Shown: positions 30,737 through 37,028 of the stretch, piece by piece
Layout of the letters: every line of letters starts with the position of its first letter
Position numbering within the stretch: position 1 is the stretch's first letter
From: an uncultured Saprospiraceae bacterium
GTDB taxonomy: Bacteria > Bacteroidota > Bacteroidia > Chitinophagales > Saprospiraceae
Direction: 5' to 3'
DNA: 37,028 nt
Assembly (NCBI GenBank): GCA_937921825.1
Contig: CAKZVK010000131.1
Coordinates: forward strand, 1-37,028
Notes under the pieces: generated by a model
Database searches by the model: none
What the model saw: only the letters and a program-made list of their open reading frames with translations
What the model was told of the DNA's origin: nothing
Made by a program: the position numbers and the translations under genes

Positions 30737-30839
30737 TAGTTCTGTGCGCGAAATGCCATAATCGCATAGTATTAATACGTTCTTTCTCATTTCTTATTTC
30801 GGACTATTTTTCTTAAATTCATAAAATTAGTCTCTTTTG

Positions 30840-30870
30840 GTAACTAATAATTTATGATTTGTCACCATAG
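30840..30870 (+). promoter_or_regulatory. Bipartite element GTAAC-N16-GTCACCATAG (predicted LytTR site)
   Basis: GTAAC (30840-30844) and GTCAC (30861-30865, continuing CATAG) begin 21 bp apart, two helical turns, the geometry of known LytTR-domain direct-repeat sites. The right half overlaps the -33 TTTG of the LytTR gene promoter. The same element at the same spacing occurs at 34936-34966. Confidence 0.65.
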
Positions 30871-30888
30871 TTGACGGCTTTAATTTTG
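30858..30888 (+). promoter_or_regulatory. Promoter of the first LytTR regulator gene
   Basis: TTTG (30858-30861), 19-base spacer, TAATTTTG (30881-30888), exact consensus. The leader to the TTG start at 30940 is about 45 bases. Confidence 0.75.
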
Positions 30889-30939
30889 CATATTCAATTA
30901 ATGCTTAACTAGCGCAGATTTTAGAAAAAATACTAACTA

Positions 30940-31635
30940 TTGAAGGCCCTTATTTTAGAAGATAACATTTCTTACGTCTGGGATTATGAGATGATCTTAG
31001 AGAAGCTAGATGTAGAAGTCGTGGCGGTATATAAGTCGTGGAGAGAGTTCTTGGCAGAAATTAAGAAAGAAACTCCTGACTTTGTAATCGTGGATCTTCT
31101 ACTCGAGAACAATGAAAAAGGCCTTGAATTCATAAAGGAGATAAAATCCTCTTATATCCCTATCATAGTATGTACAGGCTATCCTGAGCCAGAATTCATG
31201 GAAGACGCCTTAGATTATGGAGTCAGAGCTTTCTTCACTAAGCCTATAGATAAGGCTGCTATGACTTATGAGATCAAAAAACTTGTCAACGAAATTAAAA
31301 GTGAAAATCAAGGGAAGTGCATTATCACTAAAGATAAGGGCATATTAGTAAAGGTGCCTTTCACTGAAATATACAAGATAGAGATAGAGGGTAATTACTC
31401 AATGCTGTTTACTAATTCTGGCAAAAAATTTATCCTAAAAAAATCTCTGCGAAAACTATTAGATGAACTGGACGCCTCACTCTTCATGCGCTGCCATAGA
31501 TCTACCGTTGTCAATATTAGTTACATCAAGACCCTAGATGTCCAAAATAATATGTTAGGTCTTAATAATGGACAGAATGTAGAACTGGGCAACAAATTTA
31601 AGAGTACAGTAAAGAGCATGTTCAAGGTAGGTTAA
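30940..31635 (+). CDS. LytTR-family response regulator (paralogue 1)
   Basis: 231 residues. Receiver domain (1-120) with acidic pocket E7/D8, phospho-acceptor D52 in VIVDLLLENN, T79 in CTGYP and K101 in FTKPID. A LytTR DNA-binding domain (about 125-231) carries KVPFTEIYKIEIEGNYSMLF, FMRCHRSTVVNISYI and the terminal KFKSTVKSMF. Start: an in-frame TAA at 30934-30936 leaves only the TTG at 30940. It converges with the giant histidine kinase (4-base gap). A second, strongly related regulator is encoded 3.4 kb downstream. Likely cognate kinases are the propeller kinase or the TPR sensor at the window end. Confidence 0.96.
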   Translation: MKALILEDNISYVWDYEMILEKLDVEVVAVYKSWREFLAEIKKETPDFVIVDLLLENNEKGLEFIKEIKSSYIPIIVCTGYPEPEFMEDALDYGVRAFFTKPIDKAAMTYEIKKLVNEIKSENQGKCIITKDKGILVKVPFTEIYKIEIEGNYSMLFTNSGKKFILKKSLRKLLDELDASLFMRCHRSTVVNISYIKTLDVQNNMLGLNNGQNVELGNKFKSTVKSMFKVG

Positions 31636-31639
31636 CTAT

Positions 31640-34600
31640 CTACCTTCTGGGCATGTCTAACATAAAGTCTGTGCCACCAGTGTGATTAGATCTGACTGTA
31701 ATATCTACTCCAGATATTTCTGCAAGTTCATAGATGATTTTGAGTCCTATCCCTGAGCCCTTTCCTTCATTATGTAATTCTGTTTTTTGTATTTCATCTA
31801 GGTGCGGAGAATCATTCTGCATACCTATCCCTTCATCACTGATAGTGAGCTGTATTCTGTCTGCATCTTCATAGGATTTTAGACAACTTATTTTTCCATC
31901 AGGTGGAGAAAACTTCAGAGCATTACTAATCACATTTCTAAGTATAGTCTGTAGAATATTAACATCCAGATAGACTTGGTCTACGACATCTAAATTGTCG
32001 CAGGTAGCTAAATTCTTTTTACTAATCTGGGTAGAGTAGAGATTTAGAATTTTGTTTATTTCTAATTTGAGTGAAAGTTTCTCAGGCCTCTGTACCAGCT
32101 TTTTATTCTCAGACAGAGCCCATATCAGAATGTTGTTAAGGCTTTCATCTAGAGCACTGATTTTATCCTTAGTTTGTTCGGCTAGAATGTCTATCTCAGC
32201 TAGGCGATTATGTCGCGAAAGGAATTTAATTTTCTCTGTAATATCATTAAGGCTACCTATGGGGTTTCGTAAGTCATGTGCTAGGATCGCAAAGAGCTTG
32301 CTTTTTGTCTGGTTAAGTTCTCTCAGTTCTTGAGTTCTCTCTGATACCACTTTTTCTAATTTGGCATTTCTTTCTTTGATGCCTCTTAGATACCATTGGA
32401 CTGCTAACCACGTAAGTAAAAGAAATAAAAGGAGCTTTAGAATAAATGCCAACCATGTTTTGCTAAAAGGTTTCTTTACCAAAATGTCTAGTGCAAGAGT
32501 ATTGGAGGTATAGGAAGGCTTGTTAAGATCAGATACTAGTTCTATGGTGTACTCTCCATATGGAATCCGGTTTATATTAAGGATATTAGTGGGTTGTGTA
32601 ATCCAATCATCATATAGGCCTGGTATCCTGTAGGAGTAGTTGGTCTTAGAAGTATGATATAAGTGATTAGTAGCAAGAAGTAACTGAAGTGAAATATCTT
32701 CTTCGTAAAAGTCAATGCTGCCTGTGGTGTTGACTTCAATGTTTATGTTCTGGACCGTTAGATCTTCTTTGATTTTATTAGCATCGACTATTCTGATTTC
32801 TATATTGTTATCTAACTCATCGGTTTTGATATTGTCTGGATTGAAGTAGGTGTAGCCATTTAGACCGCCGAAATAAATCAGATTGTTGGTCCGATCAAAA
32901 AAGTAACCGTACTTATTGAACTCAGAATCGGTAATCCCATCCTGCTCGGTAAAAATCGAAATGTGTCCAGTCTTCTTGTCTAGACAATTAAGGTTCTTGT
33001 TAGTAGGTATCCATAACCGTTCATTCGAATCTTCTATTATTGCATGCGCATCATTATTGGATAAGCCGCTTTCTTTATTGTAAGTTTCATAGGTGTTTTT
33101 ATTCGTGTCCCATTTTATTATTCCACCTTGTCTGGTTCCAAGCCAGACGATATTGTTATCCGTTAGATCTTGGTGTATAAATTGGATAGTATAATCTATA
33201 GAATCAAAGATTGGGTCTATGTAGTGGTTGTTGGAGCTTTCGTCATAGATGATGACCCCAGTTGTGCTAGCAATCCATAGCTTTTCATCTCTTTCTACTA
33301 TATGTGTTGCTTCTATACCTTCGGTGTTAGGAATAGTAAGAAATGTCTCATTCGTATTATTGTGCTCATCTAGGTATAAAAGACCATCATTGGTAGCAAG
33401 ATAGAGTTTTTGGGACTTTGATGATCTATGGATATGGTTCATATTAATTGCACGAGCAATCGGATCAATAAAACTTTGAATTTTTTGATTTTCAAAATTT
33501 ATTTTTCTTAACTGCACCCGGCTAAGGTAGCCACATGACCATATAACATTAGAGTCTAATGGGTCTTGGTAATGCATACTCGCCATGTATCCTAAAAAGT
33601 TATTCTCGATAAAAGTTAGATCATATCTTGAAGAATTTTGCTCTATAACTTCGGATGTAACTTCCTTGTACAAGCGAAGATCACTATTGGAAAAAAATGC
33701 TCTTACACTGTTCTTTTCTGGGGACGTAGCTAAGCTTTTGAATTCTGTTTGTTTGTCCTTTAATACATAGACTCCAAGGTTAGTAGCAATGAAATCCAAA
33801 CCACTTTTACTTCTGGCATAATCGTAAATAGGTAGTTCGCTTATAGAATTCTTTAGGGTCAAGGCAGAACTGTCAGGAGAAGCATAGTAACTCTCGTTAA
33901 TCAATAATTTATCACCTGGTAATTTAGTGATGACAGAATGTTTGAGGTTAGTTAGTATCAGAAATTTAAAGAATTCATCAGGCTCTATAGAAATGAGTTT
34001 TGCGATTTCGTCACCTGTGTGCTCAAGGATATTAATTTTGTCAGCTCTTCTTTCTACAAAAAAAATGTTTCCATTTTCCGAGATATAATAGGCGGGATAC
34101 TTTGCTATATAACTTGAATCTATCGAAAATAGGACCTTACCCGTGCGGTCAGTATTGGTTATTCTGTTTTCAGAATACCTAACAATATTGCCTTCTCTAT
34201 TAACTCGAATGTGCTCACTAAAATCTAGATTGTCAGAATGCTTTTCCAGTTGGGTAGTGAATGTATAGATCGATTTTTGCTCCGTTATGAGATATATTTT
34301 ATCCCCTATGCTCTGGATTAATCTGACCTTGTTTTCAGAGAAAGCACTTGCGTCTACATATTCACTAAAGGGCATGATTTCATCAGTAAGCGGGTTGATT
34401 ATAGAGATTTTGTAAGAGAAATCTGTATGAATGTGATTAGAATAATGGCTATTTGTATTTTCTCCTTGTAATATCCATACCATCCCATTCTGATCTGCTA
34501 TAAGATCAACGATATGCAGTTCCTTATCACTAAGGTCATGAAGTGGAAAAGATGTGGCCTTGTGACCATCATATTTTTGAACACCTACAAATGAACTTAT

Positions 34601-34756
34601 CCAGAGGTTACCATATTTGTCCTCTACTAAGTTCTGACATAATTGACTGATCAATCCATCCTCTGAGCCTATATGATCTGAATAGGTTGAGGACTGGCAT
34701 GATGCTTTAGAGCATACGTATATAAAGGTGAAGAGCAATAATATTCTAAGGAGCAT
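31640..34756 (-). CDS. Hybrid-free sensor histidine kinase with beta-propeller sensor
   Basis: 1038 residues from the ATG at 34754-34756 (a TTG and a GTG up to three codons upstream are alternatives). Signal peptide, then about 14 two-component-propeller repeats (GNLWISSFVGVQKYDG, GLDFIATNLGVYVL, EKLWIASTTGVIIYD and so on), a Y_Y_Y Ig-like module (about 690-755), one membrane helix (about 765-790), HisKA with H827 in LAHDLRNPIG, and HATPase_c with NVISNALKFSPPDG and DEGIGMQ. It lacks the receiver and AraC domains of hybrid HTCS regulators, so it needs a separate regulator. Flanked by two LytTR regulators. Because LytTR regulators usually pair with LytS-like kinases, a HisKA kinase partner is unusual. 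Confidence 0.93.
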   Translation of the reverse strand: MLLRILLLFTFIYVCSKASCQSSTYSDHIGSEDGLISQLCQNLVEDKYGNLWISSFVGVQKYDGHKATSFPLHDLSDKELHIVDLIADQNGMVWILQGENTNSHYSNHIHTDFSYKISIINPLTDEIMPFSEYVDASAFSENKVRLIQSIGDKIYLITEQKSIYTFTTQLEKHSDNLDFSEHIRVNREGNIVRYSENRITNTDRTGKVLFSIDSSYIAKYPAYYISENGNIFFVERRADKINILEHTGDEIAKLISIEPDEFFKFLILTNLKHSVITKLPGDKLLINESYYASPDSSALTLKNSISELPIYDYARSKSGLDFIATNLGVYVLKDKQTEFKSLATSPEKNSVRAFFSNSDLRLYKEVTSEVIEQNSSRYDLTFIENNFLGYMASMHYQDPLDSNVIWSCGYLSRVQLRKINFENQKIQSFIDPIARAINMNHIHRSSKSQKLYLATNDGLLYLDEHNNTNETFLTIPNTEGIEATHIVERDEKLWIASTTGVIIYDESSNNHYIDPIFDSIDYTIQFIHQDLTDNNIVWLGTRQGGIIKWDTNKNTYETYNKESGLSNNDAHAIIEDSNERLWIPTNKNLNCLDKKTGHISIFTEQDGITDSEFNKYGYFFDRTNNLIYFGGLNGYTYFNPDNIKTDELDNNIEIRIVDANKIKEDLTVQNINIEVNTTGSIDFYEEDISLQLLLATNHLYHTSKTNYSYRIPGLYDDWITQPTNILNINRIPYGEYTIELVSDLNKPSYTSNTLALDILVKKPFSKTWLAFILKLLLFLLLTWLAVQWYLRGIKERNAKLEKVVSERTQELRELNQTKSKLFAILAHDLRNPIGSLNDITEKIKFLSRHNRLAEIDILAEQTKDKISALDESLNNILIWALSENKKLVQRPEKLSLKLEINKILNLYSTQISKKNLATCDNLDVVDQVYLDVNILQTILRNVISNALKFSPPDGKISCLKSYEDADRIQLTISDEGIGMQNDSPHLDEIQKTELHNEGKGSGIGLKIIYELAEISGVDITVRSNHTGGTDFMLDMPRR

Positions 34757-34935
34757 TCGCACCAAGGCAAGTTACAAAATACCGCTATGACTTAGTGAGC
34801 TTCTTTGTTCTAGAACTTAGGCAGTAGACTCTTAATGAAAATGCCGCACTGACCTTCGACTCATTAGTATAGTGCTCAATGACAGAAAACTCTTACATTT
34901 TGTGAGTGGCAAACCAAGACTTCGACAAATCATTA

Positions 34936-34966
34936 GTAACCCAAATATCTTCACTTGTCACCATAG
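34936..34966 (+). promoter_or_regulatory. Bipartite element GTAAC-N16-GTCACCATAG, second copy
   Basis: GTAAC at 34936-34940 and GTCACCATAG at 34957-34966; half-site starts are 21 bp apart as in the first copy, and 12 consecutive bases (TTGTCACCATAG) are identical. It lies between the divergent kinase and second LytTR gene, so it could govern both. Confidence 0.65.
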
Positions 34967-34984
34967 GGTCAAGTGATTTTCTTT

Positions 34985-34992
34985 TAATTTTG
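34985..34992 (+). promoter_or_regulatory. -7 promoter element of the second LytTR regulator gene
   Basis: TAATTTTG matches TAnnTTTG and resembles the first paralogue's promoter for about 24 bases. No TTG lies at the ideal -33 distance (nearest TTG is 27 bases upstream), suggesting activator dependence. Confidence 0.6.
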
Positions 34993-35044
34993 AATGTTAA
35001 ACTAATTATGCGTCTTTTTGTCTTACCCCTTTAAAAGACATTCT

Positions 35045-35746
35045 TTGTATACAGCTGTAATTCTTGAAGATGATATCTCCATTGCGTGGGATTATGAGAT
35101 AATTCTGAAGGAATTAGACGTAAAAGTCGTCTCCGTTGTAAAGACTTGGTCTGAGGCTCTGCCCACAATCAGAAAAACTAAACCAGATCTGGTTATAGTA
35201 GATTTAATTTTGAATAACGATCAGAAAGGCTTTGGTTTCATAGAAGGAATAAAAAACCTCTATATCCCTATGATTGTATGTACGGGTTTTCCCGAGCAAA
35301 GAAATATAGATAGAGCTCTAAATCTTGGAGTGCAAGCCTGGCTAACAAAGCCAGTAGATAAATCTGCTTTTATTTTTCATGTAAAAAAAGCGCTTTCCCT
35401 AAATAGAGTAGGTGATGATTCAAAGCAGCATATGATTATCACAGAAAGAGGTGGTCTAGTCAAAGTGCCTTATGATAAAATTGTCAAGATAATCGTAGAA
35501 GGTAATTATTCTTTTATCGTGATGGAGAATAACAAGCGCTTTGTATTAAAGCAATCTTTAAGCAAGACCTTAGATGGGTTAGATCCTAATAGATTTGTAA
35601 GGTGTCATAGATCTAGTATTGTAAATCTAGATTTTGTATCAGGTATTGATTCCAAGAATCATAAGATACTTCTACTAGATGGCGAGGCCCTAGATATAGG
35701 AAACAGATTTAGAAAAGAGGTCAGAAGTATCTTTAAGAATAGCTAG
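35045..35746 (+). CDS. LytTR-family response regulator (paralogue 2)
   Basis: 233 residues from the TTG at 35045; an in-frame TAA at 35003-35005 excludes ATG, and an alternative TTG at 35018 would add nine residues not matched by the paralogue. The receiver domain has E8/D9/D10, phospho-acceptor Asp in VIVDLILNND, CTGFP and the Lys of LTKPVD. The LytTR domain shows KVPYDKIVKIIVEGNYSFIV, FVRCHRSSIVNLDFV and terminal RKEVRSIF. It aligns end to end with the regulator at 30940 and shares its upstream element, so the pair arose by duplication including the promoter. Divergent from the propeller kinase and upstream of a TPR sensor-like gene. Confidence 0.95.
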   Translation: MYTAVILEDDISIAWDYEIILKELDVKVVSVVKTWSEALPTIRKTKPDLVIVDLILNNDQKGFGFIEGIKNLYIPMIVCTGFPEQRNIDRALNLGVQAWLTKPVDKSAFIFHVKKALSLNRVGDDSKQHMIITERGGLVKVPYDKIVKIIVEGNYSFIVMENNKRFVLKQSLSKTLDGLDPNRFVRCHRSSIVNLDFVSGIDSKNHKILLLDGEALDIGNRFRKEVRSIFKNS

Positions 35747-35924: not shown

Positions 35925-37028
35925 GTGATTAAGAACATCTTTTTACTTATTTCTTTTCTTTTTTTTTCTACAAATGGACATGCACAGCGGTGTATGAGTA
36001 ATGAAGAACGAGCAGAAAAGAGAGCTATTGTAGATGCAGGTACTGACGGTGCCGCAGAGGCAGCTGACAAGCTCTTCGTATGTTATCGCTTAGATGGCAA
36101 GCTTGATAGTGCTATAATATATGCAAGAAAAGGTGTAGAAATTGGTCTCAGGAAGCAGGACTCAAAAATATGGCTTGAAGCTTATCATCAATTAGCTGTA
36201 TCACATTTAGATACACCGAATTTAGACTCGGCAAGGTTTTATTTTAATTTATTATTGGATAAAACAGTACAGGCAGAAGAAGATCATGAAGTTAAGATTC
36301 GTGCGATTGCTTACATGTATTTTGGGGCTATGTACCTGGAGCACAGTTTAGGCTATGAAGAAGCATTTTCATATTTTAATAGAGCCAAAGAAACGAGTAA
36401 GAAAATTAATTTGACCTTTGTGTACGTGCGGTCTACTATCGCTCAAACTCAGATTTTGATACCACGAAAAAGATACGATGAAATAGATGAACTTCTCACT
36501 GAGGCGTATGAGTATGTGGAACAAAATGATCCAAAAAATGTATTGTCGCTCATTAATCTACAGAAAGAGAAAGCCCTTTGTCTAGCCGCCTCAACTGATA
36601 CAAAGAAACGCGAGGAAGGTATGGATCTAATGTTGGAGGTCTATGAACTATCAGAAAAGCATAAGAAATACAAAACAAGAGGTTTTATTTTTATAGATAT
36701 CGCATTAAATTATGCAGCCAACATACCTGAGAAGGAATTGTTGCGGATGGCTGAAGACAATCTTAGCTTTGCTAAAGATAAGATGTCTGGATTAGCGAAA
36801 GGTGGTCTATATCAAGCCTATGGACATGTCTTGTTACATACTAGACAATACAGAAAAGCAATCCCATATCTTGTAGAGTCCAAAGAAAACCTTTCTGGTG
36901 CCCAGCATATGACCAACTATTTATCAGTCTGTGAAGACCTGATAAGATGTTATGAGAGAACTAATCAATTGGATAAGATTATTCCAGAGTTTCAGGATTA
37001 TAAAGTTTTTAGAGATTCACTAGAAGCC
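35925..37028 (+). CDS. TPR-repeat secreted protein, probably a sensor kinase; 3' end beyond window
   Basis: Open for 368 codons to the window end. The start is GTG at 35925: an in-frame TAG at 35865-35867 and no ATG/GTG/TTG before it. The N-terminus is a signal peptide (MIKNIFLLISFLFFSTNGHAQ). The mature part is alpha-helical with tetratricopeptide-like pairs (KLDSAIIYARKGVEIG, EEAFSYFNRAKETS, YDEIDELLTEAYEYV, YRKAIPYLVESKENL), and the last visible residues (YKVFRDSLEA) are the usual lead-in to a membrane helix and kinase of TPR-type sensor histidine kinases. It lies right after the second LytTR regulator and is a candidate partner. Kinase identity is inferred because the C-terminus is not in view. 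Confidence 0.8.
   Translation, partial: MIKNIFLLISFLFFSTNGHAQRCMSNEERAEKRAIVDAGTDGAAEAADKLFVCYRLDGKLDSAIIYARKGVEIGLRKQDSKIWLEAYHQLAVSHLDTPNLDSARFYFNLLLDKTVQAEEDHEVKIRAIAYMYFGAMYLEHSLGYEEAFSYFNRAKETSKKINLTFVYVRSTIAQTQILIPRKRYDEIDELLTEAYEYVEQNDPKNVLSLINLQKEKALCLAASTDTKKREEGMDLMLEVYELSEKHKKYKTRGFIFIDIALNYAANIPEKELLRMAEDNLSFAKDKMSGLAKGGLYQAYGHVLLHTRQYRKAIPYLVESKENLSGAQHMTNYLSVCEDLIRCYERTNQLDKIIPEFQDYKVFRDSLEA

Follow-up and report, generated by a model that had tools for sequence, protein, structure and literature searches.

In a 37,028-nucleotide stretch of DNA from an uncultured Saprospiraceae bacterium (hereafter the window), two response-regulator genes are each preceded by an imperfect 9-bp direct repeat that, by comparison with relatives, approximates YTTRTCACC and has a period of 21 bp. 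From the sequence and by analogy with published sites, we judge both elements likely to be LytTR operators through which the regulators control their own genes. Both regulators combine a receiver with a LytTR domain: RR1 (30940–31635, plus strand) matches Pfam Response_reg at 8.7e-17 and LytTR (PF04397) at 8e-18, and RR2 (35045–35746, plus strand) matches LytTR at 4.8e-16 and Response_reg at 1.4e-12, these values being for the longer ORF. Each has a TTG start, that of RR2 having been picked by likeness to RR1 in place of position 35018 in the ORF list. Sequence searches of the PDB return receiver-domain and LytTR relatives, with AgrA appearing only at E values of 0.17–0.18.

The pattern GTAAC-N16-GTCACCATAG, which a sequence-only reading had placed at 30840–30870 and 34936–34966, matches exactly at both positions, and the 21 bp that this reading gave as the offset between half-sites is the distance from the start of GTAAC to the start of GTCAC in either copy. 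The 12 identical bases it described are likewise present (TTGTCACCATAG, at 30859–30870 and 34955–34966), and over the full 31 bp the two copies agree at 22 positions. Comparison with other loci widened the limits of the half-sites, placing the predicted RR1 operator at 30837–30866 on the plus strand (half-sites TTGGTAACT, 30837–30845, and TTTGTCACC, 30858–30866) and the predicted RR2 operator at 34933–34962 on the same strand (half-sites TTAGTAACC, 34933–34941, and CTTGTCACC, 34954–34962). Each has a period of 21 bp and a 9-12-9 arrangement of repeat, spacer and repeat. Scored with a motif derived from other loci only, the RR2 element is the top 21-bp pair in the window at 20.2 and the RR1 element the second at 16.4, with the next pair at 13.6. 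A perfect 7-bp inverted repeat, TCACTTG-N12-CAAGTGA (34951–34976), overlaps the RR2 element; we dropped it as a candidate because it is absent from RR1.

Taken by itself, the pair of elements in the window is suggestive and not decisive. When the regions upstream of RR1 (30737–30939) and RR2 (34766–35044) are dinucleotide-shuffled, a common word of 12 bases or more turns up in 0.88% of 20,000 pairs, and ungapped comparison over 31 bases yields 22 or more matches in 19 of 1,500 shuffled pairs. The degenerate form GTMAC-N16-GTCACC occurs twice in the window, against a mean of 0.00 in 100 shuffles.

We therefore rely on the regions upstream of related regulators, namely those of RR1, RR2 and a third paralogue, RR3, found on contig C92 of the same genome; of G003, G011 and G005, all listed in the genus of the window; and of G032 (two regions), G337 (three), G271, G232 and G030. 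G001, which is nearly identical to G011, was omitted from the counts. Orthologous upstream regions were also where the sequence-only reading had exposed itself to refutation. At 10 test loci (RR3, G003, G011, G005, G032a, G032b, G337a–c and G271), with RR1 and RR2 left out as the discovery pair, the downstream half TTRTCACC is present exactly at five and with at most one mismatch at nine, compared with 0.002 and 0.10, respectively, in resampled sequence. The exception is G271, whose regulator lies 4 bp behind a same-strand ORF and may be without a promoter of its own. The opposite strand of the test loci holds no exact copy and three within one mismatch, and 60 more distant regions hold two exact copies and 13 within one mismatch. 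Over 10 aligned rows, mean information reaches 1.67 bits in the downstream half and 0.75 bits in the upstream half, with 0.29 bits in the spacer and 0.27 and 0.32 bits in the flanks.

The half-sites themselves are TTAGTCACT/CTTGTCACC at G337a, TTGGTCCCC/TTTATCCCC at G337b, CTTAACACC/CTTAACACC at G337c and TTAGTAATC/TTGGTCACC at G005, while in G003 and G011, each with a single match to such a regulator at 1e-20, the gene is preceded by TTTATCACC and CTTATCACC. RR1 is closest by identity to the regulator of G003 (60%), and the LGT gene preceding RR1 shares 79% identity with its positional counterpart in G003, so these two loci are syntenic. In the tree, RR2 joins its G011 counterpart with support of 100/100, and the split between RR1 and RR2, as judged from these sequences, predates that between RR2 and G011. 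A more distant Saprospiraceae regulator (L088, G340:C375) is preceded by a strong pair at the 21-bp period, TTTATCACC-N12-TTTAACACC. In G001, the RR2 orthologue (L075:5987-6418) stops after 143 residues, without a LytTR domain, and the upstream element is kept; the kinase gene that lies downstream of the regulator in G011 was not seen in G001, as if one deletion had taken both the LytTR domain and the kinase, or through a fault of the assembly.

The 21-bp period recurs among these relatives. When a downstream half chosen by eye serves as the anchor in 10 regions (G032b, G271, G232 and G030 not being included), the upstream half peaks at −21 of 93 offsets with a z of 5.1. The z is 4.55 with RR1 and RR2 removed from the rows but kept in the motif, and 4.0 with G337c removed as well. 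Anchoring of G337b and G337c followed the recognition of their repeat and was thus circular; with both removed, −21 ranks first over eight loci (z 4.29). In the strictest version, from which RR1 and RR2 are also taken out of both rows and motif, −21 again ranks first over the remaining six loci (z 3.15), with offset −41 close behind. A spacing scan of 12 regions, with G030 included and G271 and G232 excluded, gives 21 bp as the best of 35 spacings in five and among the top three in nine. The best spacing is 22 in RR3 (9-13-9) and 23 in G032a (9-14-9, beyond the published spacer range of 11–13 nt); in the same scan, a 21-bp pair is weak in G032b and not clearly present in G030. Self-similarity computed with no motif over the 12 core regions, RR1 and RR2 included, also peaks at a period of 21 (z 6.55).

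A family-wide search matched 139 of 398 genomes at E 1e-30, and the next 60 upstream stretches among the matches listed were fetched. Together with G232, 58 of these form a distant set of 59 regions, L086 (G030) having been moved to the core and L108 (one base) dropped. Scored with a motif that included both window sites, a spacing of 21 is the best in seven of the 59, where about 1.1 would be expected over 52 spacings, and it has the highest mean excess of all 52. Reversed sequence favors 21 as well (best in four regions, mean excess 1.18 vs 2.12), and it is not a clean control because a true repeat survives reversal. Motif-free self-similarity over the 59 regions ranks 21 second (z 3.31), behind 8. 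These results suggest, with moderate confidence, that a 21-bp repeat extends across the wider regulator set.

The genome search proposed in the sequence-only reading, with GTMAC-N16-GTCACC, fared no better than background, giving five matches and five in the reversed control; this pattern therefore defines no regulon. For TTGTCACCATA there are six matches genome-wide and one in the reversed control, and all four matches outside the window fall within ORFs. The broader pattern YTTRTMACY-N12-YTTRTCACC, allowing up to three mismatches, has 213 matches compared with 144 in the reversed control, and at the one-mismatch level it recovers the two window sites only. We inspected 18 of the 19 two-mismatch matches, omitting L164, which overlaps L163: 11 lie within ORFs and seven between ORFs, three of the latter with an ORF start at most 450 bp downstream (encoding 406, 236 and 140 aa). 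Among the inspected matches, we found no clear target beyond RR1, RR2 and the related RR3. Scans with a motif that included both window sites found no strong pair at six further loci of the genome that encode LytTR-type regulators (best 4.6; for three of them the scan began within the gene). A search for a perfect repeat across 148 relatives matched 28 genomes; we rejected it as a screen, since no core regulator locus is among the matches listed and 27 of the 30 inspected matches lie within ORFs.

The neighboring genes suggest a sensor for each regulator. HK1 (31640–34765, minus strand), a sensor kinase with Pfam Reg_prop and HATPase_c matches and Y_Y_Y slightly below cut-off, lies tail-to-tail with RR1 and head-to-head with RR2 and is the likely partner of RR1. 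Behind RR2, an ORF truncated by the contig end (35925–37028, plus strand; TPR matches below cut-off) encodes the N-terminal part of a protein that, across 329 residues, shares 44% identity with the corresponding part of a HATPase_c protein encoded downstream of, and on the same strand as, the RR2 orthologue of G011; it is likely the partner kinase of RR2. With HK1 beside RR1 and this likely kinase behind RR2, the two regulators probably serve different sensors. With the motif that included both window sites, a paired site was found neither before HK1 on the minus strand (best pair 1.9, with one lone half, TTTGTAACT, at 7.7) nor before the ORF at 35925.

RR1-type regulators stand tail-to-tail with a kinase in which HATPase_c was found in the genome of the window, G003, G032a, G337b and G271, and with a kinase assigned by position only in G337a and G232; in G005 the kinase is divergent from the regulator. 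The gap between the facing genes is 4 bp in the window and 1 bp in G003; in G032a, G271 and G337a the two overlap by 9–11 bp. This pairing of a regulator with a Reg_prop-type kinase occurs repeatedly, with gaps of 1–41 bp or overlaps of 9–11 bp (window 31635-31640; L070:3645-3655; L068:4610-4620; L067:2704-2712; L071:7017-7019). Two-component pairs do not seem to be arranged this way as a rule, and antisense read-through could give the layout a regulatory role. A TTG start is apparent in eight of the 15 regulators compared, with no in-frame ATG shortly upstream when starts are set by alignment (30940 and 35045 in the window; L071:6322; L072:6643; L075:5987; L070:4334; L067:3399; L066:2180), and TTG is possibly a conserved weak start codon of these regulators.

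Downstream of the repeats lie candidate Bacteroidota −7 elements with the sequence TAATTTTG, located by sequence and scan: one at 30881–30888 for RR1 and one at 34985–34992 for RR2, both on the plus strand. The distance from repeat to box is 14 bp for RR1 and 22 bp for RR2, a difference of 8 bp, and a perfect box after the repeat is absent from the other eight anchored loci. The promoter assignment for RR1 and RR2 is accordingly a weak one, in which the elements would stand just upstream of a putative promoter. A search for an RNA leader gave no Rfam match at gathering score within the window.

According to PMC4847170, sites of LytTR response regulators consist of two repeats of 9–11 nt with spacers of 11–13 nt and no common consensus, and PMC4227749 places the direct repeats bound by AgrA immediately before the promoters that this regulator activates. 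The operators of YpdB (PMC4847170) and AgrA (PMC4227749), as presented there, resemble ours in having two direct repeats, in format and in what would here be a placement upstream of the controlled promoter; they differ in that YpdB has the motif GGCATTTCAT in contrast to a half-site of about YTTRTCACC here, that the sensors differ and that the sites here are predicted. A second comparison is with the LRS, described in PMC6193735 as a two-protein system of a LytTR regulator and a transmembrane protein that inhibits it, in which the regulator activates its own operon from repeats of 9 bp, separated for the most part by 12 bp and lying directly before the −35. The HdrRM and BrsRM systems of Streptococcus mutans (PMC6193735) share with our elements the 9-bp repeats, the 12-bp spacer and, as predicted here, both autoregulation and the position at the regulator's own promoter, but their operon partner is a membrane inhibitor, whereas here we find receiver domains and nearby kinases, and their −35 lies 4–11 bp from the repeats, whereas the candidate −33 here touches or overlaps them. 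RR1 and RR2 fall outside the LRS, having receiver domains, a HATPase_c kinase beside RR1 and a likely kinase behind RR2. Bacteroides thetaiotaomicron and B. ovatus belong to the same phylum as the source of the window. Their LRS-like operons, as listed in Table 3 of PMC6193735, likewise have direct repeats before a TATCTTTG-type promoter, a candidate one in our case, but with 11-bp repeats, an 11-bp spacer, a TCCGG-type sequence and regulators with transmembrane segments.

What stands of the original assignment to LytTR is the direct repeat, its two-turn spacing, its place before the regulators' own genes and its recurrence in other genomes; binding by the regulators, the dimer mode, the promoter position and the sign of regulation we infer. 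With a LytTR domain in the adjacent gene, the 9-12-9 format and recurrence upstream of related regulators, the elements fit published LytTR sites and by analogy would therefore be autoregulatory operators, most likely activating. On this model, the partner kinase would phosphorylate the regulator, which would then bind its own promoter, the two LytTR domains of a dimer contacting the two imperfect repeats (about YTTRTCACC) on the same DNA face at a distance of two helical turns (21 bp), with the downstream half the stronger. The operator would lie just upstream of, or overlap, the −33 region, and the bound regulator would most likely activate its own promoter in a positive feedback.

The sequence-only reading had further proposed a cross-regulated pair. 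On a rival account of this kind, RR1 and RR2 would bind and control each other's promoters and join two sensors in one switch. The 12 identical bases include most of the strong half, the two genes are neighbors, and HdrRM and BrsRM are reported in PMC6193735 to be both autoregulatory and coregulatory; with matching downstream halves, cross-action may occur. The regulators are, however, 47% identical, with RR2 grouping with G011 and apart from RR1. The sole regulators found in G003 and G011 have similar halves, so the likeness needs no cross-action, and with different sensor modules and a RR1/RR2 split older than that of RR2 and G011, the shared site may only mirror a similar binding preference. 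We hold cross-regulation to be possible but doubtful. A fuller version, in which two modules with different sensors (the Reg_prop propeller kinase of RR1 and the second kinase behind RR2) would use one operator code, either signal would turn both regulators on by interlocked positive feedback and this LytTR clade of the Saprospiraceae would be chiefly self-acting, is speculative and rather unlikely.

Alternatively, the protein that binds the element might be an unrelated regulator with control over the LytTR genes. We consider this improbable: a 21-bp direct repeat is a known LytTR format in the sites described in PMC4847170, the element tracks LytTR genes across tail-to-tail, divergent and co-directional kinase neighborhoods, and the inspected genome matches offer no clear second target. 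Very improbable, in our estimate, is that the likeness is left over from the duplication that would relate these paralogues, or is a core promoter element, with no operator function. Within the downstream half of RR1, TTTG lies 19 bp before TAATTTTG, which fits the −33/−7 spacing of the consensus, but the same half of RR2 is 8 bp further from its box, and across genomes the halves are conserved while spacer and flanks are near background.

As autoregulatory LytTR operators, the elements would be a new example of an already known type of switch, with a specific operator sequence, about YTTRTCACC at a 21-bp period, for LytTR response regulators of a little-studied bacterial family. Such a sequence would help in working out their partner kinases, their targets and the sign of the feedback, and cross-regulation, if true, would join two sensors.
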